From contig JALSQW010000037.1 in assembly GCA_026985095.1 (NCBI GenBank), positions 1 to 53,061 of the forward strand: 53,061 nucleotides of DNA. Reading direction: 5' to 3'. The stretch is from Acidimicrobiia bacterium. Its GTDB lineage: Bacteria > Actinomycetota > Acidimicrobiia > Spongiisociales > UBA5794. Below the pieces are notes generated by a model. That model was not told where the DNA came from. It did no database searches and worked only from the letters and a program-made list of their open reading frames with translations. Position 1 is the stretch's first letter. The number at the start of each line of letters is the position of its first letter. Position numbers and translations under genes: made by a program. Positions 19,942 to 21,461 of this stretch are shown one piece after another.

Positions 19942-20421
19942 CTATTCGGTGGTCGGTTCGGGCCGGCGCCCGAGGTTCGCCGGTCCGGCAGCCGATCGCG
20001 CCCGGCCCGAGGCCGGGTCGATCCCTCGCTCGACCAGGACGCGTTCGATGATCGCCTTCCTGGCCAGCAACGGGCCCAGGTCACTGGCGGCGTTCGCCTT
20101 GGCGTCGATGACGGCCCGGGTCATCTCCCCGCTCACCGCGGCGGGCGCCCCGCCCGTGCCACCTGGTCCCGACATCATCGTGAATCCCGAGACCCGCCGT
20201 TCGGCAGCCGCGACTCGGGCCGCGATCGACCGCAGCTCGGCCACGAGGGCGGGCGTGGGTCGCCGCTCGTCGGCGGCCCTCCGGTACCGGTCGGCCTCGG
20301 CGCGGAGACGATCCCGGCGGAGCTCCAGCTCGTACCGTTCGGCGAACCGGCCGGCGTCCAGGCCCAGTAGGGCGTCCTGGATCTCTGCCAGCTCCGCCGT
20401 GATCCTGTCGAGGTCGGTCAT
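19942..20421 (-). CDS. Coiled-coil protein of unknown function
   Basis: A 159-aa protein. ATG 20421 is chosen because GGAG lies seven bases before it; the longer frame start at 20607 has no support. Residues 1 to about 80 are charged heptad-like helix (LDRITAELAEIQDALLGL, RYELELRRDRLRAEADRYRRA, ELRSIAARVAAAERRV). A Gly/Met-rich linker (FTMMSGPGGTGG) separates a second helical part with DLGPLLARKAIIERVLVERG. The function is unknown. It diverges from the OsmC gene across 121 bases. Confidence 0.72.
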   Translation of the reverse strand: MTDLDRITAELAEIQDALLGLDAGRFAERYELELRRDRLRAEADRYRRAADERRPTPALVAELRSIAARVAAAERRVSGFTMMSGPGGTGGAPAAVSGEMTRAVIDAKANAASDLGPLLARKAIIERVLVERGIDPASGRARSAAGPANLGRRPEPTTE

Positions 20422-20542
20422 GGGCAACTCCTCTCCGCGAATGGTACCGGACCGTCGGCCCCTGGTCGATCGGCCGGGACGGAGATCGACGGGCGGAGCA
20501 CCTGTCGGTCGTCTACGGTGGGAGACAACGAGGAGGTTGCCA

Positions 20543-21022
20543 ATGGACGATGCGGTCGCGTACCGGTCCGAGGTGCACATCGAACGGCTCCGCGGGCCCA
20601 TCCGCAAGGCCTGGGTGCCGGGCCGTCACGATCCCATCACCTTCGGCGTCCACGGCGAGATCGCTCAGCACTATGGGGTCTCGCCTGCCGATTTCCCGCC
20701 CGATGCGACGACGATCGACTACCTGGTCGCTGCCGCCGGGGGCTGACTGACGGGGACCCTTGGAGGCGCGCTGGAAGCGCGCGGCATCGATGCCAGCGAA
20801 GGGCGGCTCACCTCCGACACGGTCGGTGAGGTGGTCAAGGACGGCAAGGTCCTGGTGGTCCGCCGGATCCACGTGACGTACCGCCTCGCCGACGTGGCCG
20901 AGGACAAGCGGGACGCCGCCCGCCGCGCCCACGAGCACCATGCCGAGTTCTGTCCGGTGGCCCGGTCCATCAGGGACGCCATCGACATCAGCACCGAACT
21001 CGAGTTCGTCGACGGGCACTGA
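20543..21022 (+). CDS. OsmC-family protein, candidate selenoprotein (TGA at codon 68)
   Basis: OsmC/Ohr-fold thiol peroxidases use two cysteines: one in a helix after LLAAA-like residues, one in a CPV motif. Here ATG 20543, with AGGAGG upstream, reads to VAAAGG at codon 67, then TGA at 20744-20746, then LTGTLGGALEARGI in the same frame to the stop at 21022. TGA stands exactly where the first catalytic Cys belongs; the second is Cys137 in EFCPVARS. Homology continues on both sides with no frame change, so this is not an indel. A 6-bp stem with loop TGGAA starts 20 bases after the TGA. Read as Sec the protein is 159 aa, normal for the family. Alternatively, TGC mutated to TGA (pseudogene) or a base-call error. 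Sec-containing OsmC-like proteins have been reported from marine metagenomes. The Sec machinery genes are not in the window. Confidence 0.78.
20766..20782 (+). promoter_or_regulatory. SECIS-like hairpin after the in-frame TGA
   Basis: GCGCGC at 20766-20771 and GCGCGC at 20777-20782 pair around loop TGGAA at 20772-20776. The loop begins 25 bases after the TGA and has G at its second position, both within what is accepted for bacterial SECIS elements. An outer CCCTT (20757-20761) / AAGGG (20799-20803) pairing could close it. Such GC-rich hairpins also occur by chance in this genome. Confidence 0.5.
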
Positions 21023-21038: not shown

Positions 21039-21461
21039 TCAGTCCAGGTCGGTCGGCGGTCGACGCCGACGCTTGAGAGCGGCCCGACGGCGCTTGTCGT
21101 CGAGGCGCCGGCGGCGAGCGGCCGCCGACGGCCGGGTCGGTCGACGCGGCGGAGGCGGCGGCGCCAGCGCTTCACGGAGGCGCTCGGCGAGGCGGGCCCG
21201 AGCCTGCCGGCGGTTGCGCCACTGCGAGCGGGAGCGATCCGCCTCGACGACGATCACGCCGGCGGCGGGGGCGAGCCGCTCGAGGATACGGTTCCGCTCG
21301 GCCTCGTCGAAGGCGGCCGAGCGGGCGACGTCGAACGACAGGACCGCCCTGGTGGCCGAACGGTTGGCGTGCTGGCCTCCGGGCTTCCCCGACGGCTCGA
21401 ACCGCCACTTCAGCTCGCTCGCCGGGATCGTATGGGCGTCGTCGACGACGAGATCCTCCAT
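21039..21461 (-). CDS. arfB: Peptidyl-tRNA hydrolase ArfB (stalled-ribosome rescue)
   Basis: A 140-aa ArfB/YaeJ-type release-factor homologue. GKPGGQHANRSATRAVL holds the GGQ loop at residues 28-30, which hydrolyses peptidyl-tRNA on stalled ribosomes. The C-terminal tail is very basic (ARRRRLDDKRRRAALKRRRR), as needed to enter the empty mRNA channel. ATG 21461 fits the family start; the longer frame start at 21623 overlaps the divergent ligase gene. It faces the OsmC gene tail-to-tail, 16 bases apart. Confidence 0.92.
   Translation of the reverse strand: MEDLVVDDAHTIPASELKWRFEPSGKPGGQHANRSATRAVLSFDVARSAAFDEAERNRILERLAPAAGVIVVEADRSRSQWRNRRQARARLAERLREALAPPPPPRRPTRPSAAARRRRLDDKRRRAALKRRRRPPTDLD

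Follow-up and report, generated by a model that had tools for sequence, protein, structure and literature searches.

The window analysed here, the whole 53,061-nucleotide stretch of DNA from an Acidimicrobiia bacterium, carries on its forward strand an OsmC-like gene that is interrupted by an in-frame TGA codon at the position of the first redox cysteine of the family (Table 1). Translation confirmed the claim of an earlier note, made from the letters of the DNA, that the gene is a single frame with this TGA as its sole internal stop. The read-through product has 159 residues and ends at a second TGA (21020-21022). The note had also expected a standard gene caller to split the gene into ORFs of 67 and 63 amino acids; such a split may occur, but it is not the only outcome, as the frame stays open upstream of the ATG as far as a GTG at 19949, and a 265-amino acid ORF from that GTG to the TGA is also possible. 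A convergent gene on the reverse strand (21039-21461) encodes an RF-1 domain (PF00472) with a GGQ motif, and its product resembles the ArfB/ICT1-type peptidyl-tRNA hydrolases.

Table 1. Features of the OsmC-like locus, in coordinates of the window.
Feature	Position	Strand	Evidence
Strong Shine-Dalgarno sequence GAGGAGG, 6 nt 5' of ATG 20543	20530-20536	+	sequence inspection
OsmC-like gene, predicted to encode a selenoprotein	20543-21022	+	translation, Pfam match, homologue alignment, OsmC fold model (pLDDT 95)
In-frame TGA, predicted to be read as selenocysteine (residue 68, first redox Cys position)	20744-20746	+	TGA in homologues, alignment with 2onf, Cys in distant homologues
Predicted SECIS hairpin: stem GCGCGC (20766-20771) and GCGCGC (20777-20782), loop UGGAA (20772-20776)	20766-20782	+	conservation, MFE fold
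Cys137 of a CPV motif, second (resolving) Cys and putative partner of Sec68 in the proposed selenylsulfide	20951-20953	+	invariant in alignments A1 and A2; aligned with Ohr

The assignment to OsmC held at the level of both sequence and structure. With Cys placed at residue 68, the protein matches the Pfam OsmC model PF02566 at 46.4 bits (E 5.6e-12, gathering cut-off 27.5), and all 44 members of alignment A2 match the same model at E ≤ 0.001. An AlphaFold model with a mean pLDDT of 95.2 has the OsmC fold over the whole chain, and its top structural matches in VIA-align, also over the whole chain, are OsmC/Ohr proteins. The closest solved folds are Ta0195 of Thermoplasma (2onf, Z 14.7) and the structural genomics entry 1ml8 (Z 13.9), although identity to them is just 17–18% and their entry titles give no established function. 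OsmC and Ohr proteins score in the range of about 12–13 (E. coli OsmC 12.4–12.9, Ohr ~12.5). The family profile aligns residue 68 with the first Cys of 2onf (Cys54), in agreement with the proposed location of the TGA, and places Cys137 opposite the second Cys of Ohr. Alignments A1 and A2 show no variation at Arg21, residue 68 and Cys137, and hardly any at Asp59. The protein thus shares with the OsmC/Ohr peroxiredoxins (TIGR03562, TIGR03561; PDB 1qwi, 1nye, 1n2f, 1zb9) the fold, the two redox positions and a preceding conserved Arg, but it would have Sec in place of the peroxidatic Cys, and identity in the structural alignments is about 10–16%. It scores 18.2 bits against the OsmC model TIGR03562 (cut-off 85.8), and the Ohr model TIGR03561 has no listed match.

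To follow the interrupted codon through the family, homologues were collected from several samples. The residue-68 codon is TGA in every one of the 132 homologue rows that span it, and the second Cys, which the earlier note had found intact in the window, is kept in all rows that reach its column. The 132 rows include genes reached by two tools; the number of distinct 249-nt DNA windows among them is 113. This conservation lies far beyond chance and bears out the suspicion that the TGA had not arisen as a random nonsense mutation. Had the stop been seen once, in one draft genome, a pseudogene or a sequencing or assembly error (a Cys codon lost by a nonsense change or a miscall) would look alike, but both are scarcely credible here: the TGA is conserved across phyla, which refutes a pseudogene, about 100 independent sequences from independent assemblies share it, which excludes an error, both halves of the gene are conserved, and chromosome-level records (CP046147, CP070697, CP070746) have the TGA form.

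The form is common enough to contradict the expectation that Sec-containing OsmC proteins are rare in actinobacteria. A homologue was found in 23 of 395 genomes sampled from the class, with TGA in all 22 that cover the site, and a match in 46 of 396 genomes sampled across the phylum, mostly with one in-frame TGA, a count that includes some Cys forms. A scan of GTDB genomes returned 321 relatives; the best 80 were retained. By their record titles, these 80 include Acidimicrobiia and Nitriliruptoraceae among actinobacteria, SAR202, Thermoflexus, Dehalococcoidia, Anaerolineae and Thermomicrobiales among Chloroflexota, and Desulfobacterales, Acidobacteriota, Dormibacterota, Poribacteria, Nitrospinota, Nitrospirota, Gemmatimonadota, Tectomicrobia and KSB1. 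The complete genome of the chloroflexotal Ca. Lucifugimonas marina carries a TGA-form gene as well, near 219.6–220.1 kb of CP046147. Two records titled 'Acidobacteria bacterium' (L045, JACZST010000011; L046, JADFIY010000024) appear to be the same as two genomes of the window's own family (G359 and G213, respectively) and are apparently mislabelled. No relative was detected in viral contigs at the sensitivity used. Two distant actinobacterial relatives (L162, G435:C15; L163, G565:C74) have the TGA in a UMMGT motif, and their genomes contain tRNA-Sec and selA.

The earlier note had suggested looking for relatives with Cys at the same column, and these exist too. Of the two search patterns in the GTDB scan, one required Cys at this codon; the design thus left Cys forms open to detection. 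Among the homologues found, Cys (TGC or TGT) occurs in one more distant group only, the genes L154–L160 from five actinobacterial genomes of a single family. A convincing tRNA-Sec is absent from these five genomes, in which the best matches (46–51 bits) are like the secondary matches of other genomes, and selA is absent from four of them. For the TGA form, 45 genomes were compared: a tRNA-Sec scoring 60–84 bits is present in 39, tRNA-Sec or selA is present in 43, and the two genomes with neither are 75% and 82% complete. Within the class, selA is present in 20 of 22 TGA genomes (the remaining two are 60% and 68% complete), which is weak evidence because selA is found in 255 of the 395 class genomes anyway. 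In a tree the Cys rows fall apart from the main Sec clade; the tree has no outside root and therefore does not decide whether Cys or Sec is ancestral. In the genome G694 (L160, L161), selA is present and the OsmC relatives are Cys-containing or cysteine-less, but there is no clear tRNA-Sec; this lineage may be losing its Sec system, or a contig may be missing. Second tRNA-Sec-like matches of 52–57 bits were seen beside the main tRNA-Sec in three cases (G753:C1:1741271-1741361, G754:C1:2219071-2219161, G419:C19:10563-10652) and are possibly long-variable-arm tRNAs or second tRNA-Sec genes.

The host genome itself (2.93 Mb in 70 contigs, completeness 100%, contamination 0.25%) encodes the complete Sec machinery. 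It has one tRNA-Sec (73.6 bits, anticodon tca), selB (C23:41633-43405, 294 bits) adjoining selA (C23:43423-44745, 402 bits), and selD (L017, C32:14580-15503, 396 bits). All four components are thus present, among them selB, tRNA-Sec and selD, whose absence the earlier note would have taken as grounds for rejection. The host selD is a selenoprotein gene in its own right: its frame contains a TGA, in the motif HGAGUACK; Sec within GAGUACK is the usual Sec form of SelD.

We then examined the RNA downstream of the UGA codon. Compared with the codon usage elsewhere within the same genes, codon identity at synonymous sites is 2–2.4 times the expected value at +21, +24, +27, +33 and +36 after the UGA; it is also raised at +3 (1.9-fold) and +6 (1.6-fold) and is about 1 almost everywhere else. 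The conserved codons at +21 to +38 form a hairpin, GCGCGC-UGGAR-GCGCGC. All its base pairs are present in 94 of 112 sequences, and a further 11 have the hairpin in a shifted register (of the type GUGCC-CUNGA-GGCAC). The total of 105 compares with 19.0 ± 3.8 expected from random synonymous codon draws (maximum 31 in 1000 trials). Neither register is fully formed in the other seven sequences, Ca. Lucifugimonas among them. The hairpin is kept in none of seven Cys-form genes tested, nor is the GCGCGC form kept in the two UMMGT genes. The MFE fold of the local RNA contains the hairpin. Because folding energy alone does not single it out (z 0.10; P 0.066 with synonymous shuffling), the argument for a SECIS element is made from conservation. 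According to the Sargasso Sea study (PMC1088965), bacterial SECIS elements follow directly on the UGA and have a guanosine in a small apical loop; the hairpin has such a loop, UGGAA, beginning 25 nt past the UGA. We therefore predict from the sequence that it is a bacterial SECIS element. When the window was scanned for TGA frames that have a SECIS-like stem, 39 matches came up; family support for the frame is known for the TGA at 20744 alone, and the other 38 look like chance products of GC-rich sequence.

The codon is known at the DNA level alone, which leaves room for UGA to be read as another amino acid, such as Trp or Cys, through an altered code or a suppressor tRNA, or for regulated readthrough. 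We consider this very improbable: genomes with the TGA form have Sec machinery, homologues from genomes without a convincing tRNA-Sec have Cys in this column, the sequence after the UGA has a conserved SECIS-type hairpin, and the gene's own terminator is TGA. With TGA conserved at this codon in every homologue row that spans it, we regard the question as settled, as far as sequence can settle it, in favour of a real selenoprotein: the UGA almost certainly encodes Sec at the active site.

OsmC-like selenoproteins are already known, as the earlier note said, and the new sequences had to be placed relative to them. Proteins with the motif UxxT have been listed since 2005, with three Sargasso Sea (PMC1088965) and five GOS (PMC2398784) sequences, and they also appear in reviews (PMC9312934, PMC13188914). 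The window protein is like them in belonging to the OsmC family, in placing its predicted Sec where the central helix has its first Cys, and in a predicted bacterial SECIS; it differs in its motif, U-L-T-G-T, which has G rather than T at +3 and T at +2 and +4. The NCBIfam model NF041052 (OsmC_like_Se, 'OsmC-related (seleno)protein'; cut-off 95 bits) gives it 14.3 bits and matches other members of the subfamily only at weak E-values (best 3.8e-05). From its motif and name, we infer that this model represents the published UxxT family. Three UxxT genes with in-frame TGA, of the forms ULLT, UVLT and UMLT (L185, G765:C6:186571-186879; L186, G757:C25:17543-17851; L187, G086:C19:72952-73260), score 146–173 bits against it. 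All three come from genomes that also carry the ULTGT form, and G086, a member of the window's own order, holds both kinds. The differing motif and the scores of 14.3 versus 146–173 bits set the ULTGT subfamily apart, so that the published Sec-OsmC family is most likely, by motif and model, the UxxT subfamily and not this one. In a 2026 review (PMC13188914), Sec proteins that share a domain but differ in Sec position or motif count as separate subfamilies. One more OsmC protein (L184, G756:C1:5729437-5729742; LATUMTTTMVYH) also has a TGA within its frame; it reaches only 54.7 bits against NF041052 and is perhaps a third Sec-OsmC type.

What might the selenoprotein do? Starting from the features computed directly, namely the conserved TGA, the OsmC fold, Cys137, the hairpin and the complete Sec machinery, we infer the insertion of Sec, the peroxide substrate and the reductant, and a Sec-based two-residue peroxidase cycle emerges as the best-supported mechanism. 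SelB and tRNA-Sec, directed by the hairpin about 20 nt downstream, would decode the UGA as Sec, and Sec68 would take the place of the peroxidatic Cys of OsmC/Ohr. Its selenolate would attack an organic (or lipid) hydroperoxide, the resulting selenenic acid would condense with Cys137 to a selenylsulfide, and this would be reduced by a dithiol, either a lipoyl protein or thioredoxin. No conserved gene neighbourhood that would name a reductant or point to a pathway was found across ~80 loci, at which recurrent neighbours belong to common families or are lineage-specific. By analogy with known family members, the protein is probably a Sec-dependent hydroperoxide reductase. The analogy has limits: the catalytic triad of Ohr consists of Arg19, Glu51 and the peroxidatic Cys61, with Cys125 as resolving Cys (PMC5962072), and since the acid is at C−10 in Ohr whereas the conserved Asp59 of the window protein is at U−9, the active-site chemistry is only similar. 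A selenoprotein in which Sec68 has another redox or ligand role, for instance in a thiol/disulfide or persulfide reaction, is the less likely but still serious alternative. Peroxidase activity is not shared by every protein discussed alongside OsmC and Ohr: FTN_1133, implicated in organic peroxide resistance, is reported to lack thiol-dependent peroxidase activity (PMC4069020). Moreover, the ULTGT subfamily is distant from OsmC and Ohr in sequence, and its neighbours are uninformative; against this stands the combination of predicted Sec, conserved second Cys and invariant Arg21, which matches the layout of Ohr peroxidases.

The ULTGT proteins apparently form a widespread Sec-OsmC subfamily that has so far not been described, although supplements or further papers may mention the form. 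On balance, we favour an undescribed, phylum-spanning subfamily of Sec-dependent peroxidases with the OsmC fold for which Sec is all but obligatory: more than 100 genes sampled from actinobacteria, Chloroflexota and other lineages of soil, sea and subsurface retain it, and Cys was seen just in a more distant group whose genomes have no convincing tRNA-Sec. There would then be at least two separate Sec-OsmC subfamilies, ULTGT and UxxT, and perhaps four with UMTTT and UMMGT. Because ordinary gene callers would split the ULTGT genes in two and none of the curated NCBIfam models searched covers the subfamily, the selenoprotein, encoded at about 300 loci of the species-level genome collection, has probably been missed or misnamed. 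It gives a concrete selenoprotein to seek in many uncultivated lineages with Sec machinery and in Ca. Lucifugimonas marina, and it raises a testable question: why Sec has been kept, with hardly any replacement by Cys, in a fold in which Cys works well elsewhere.
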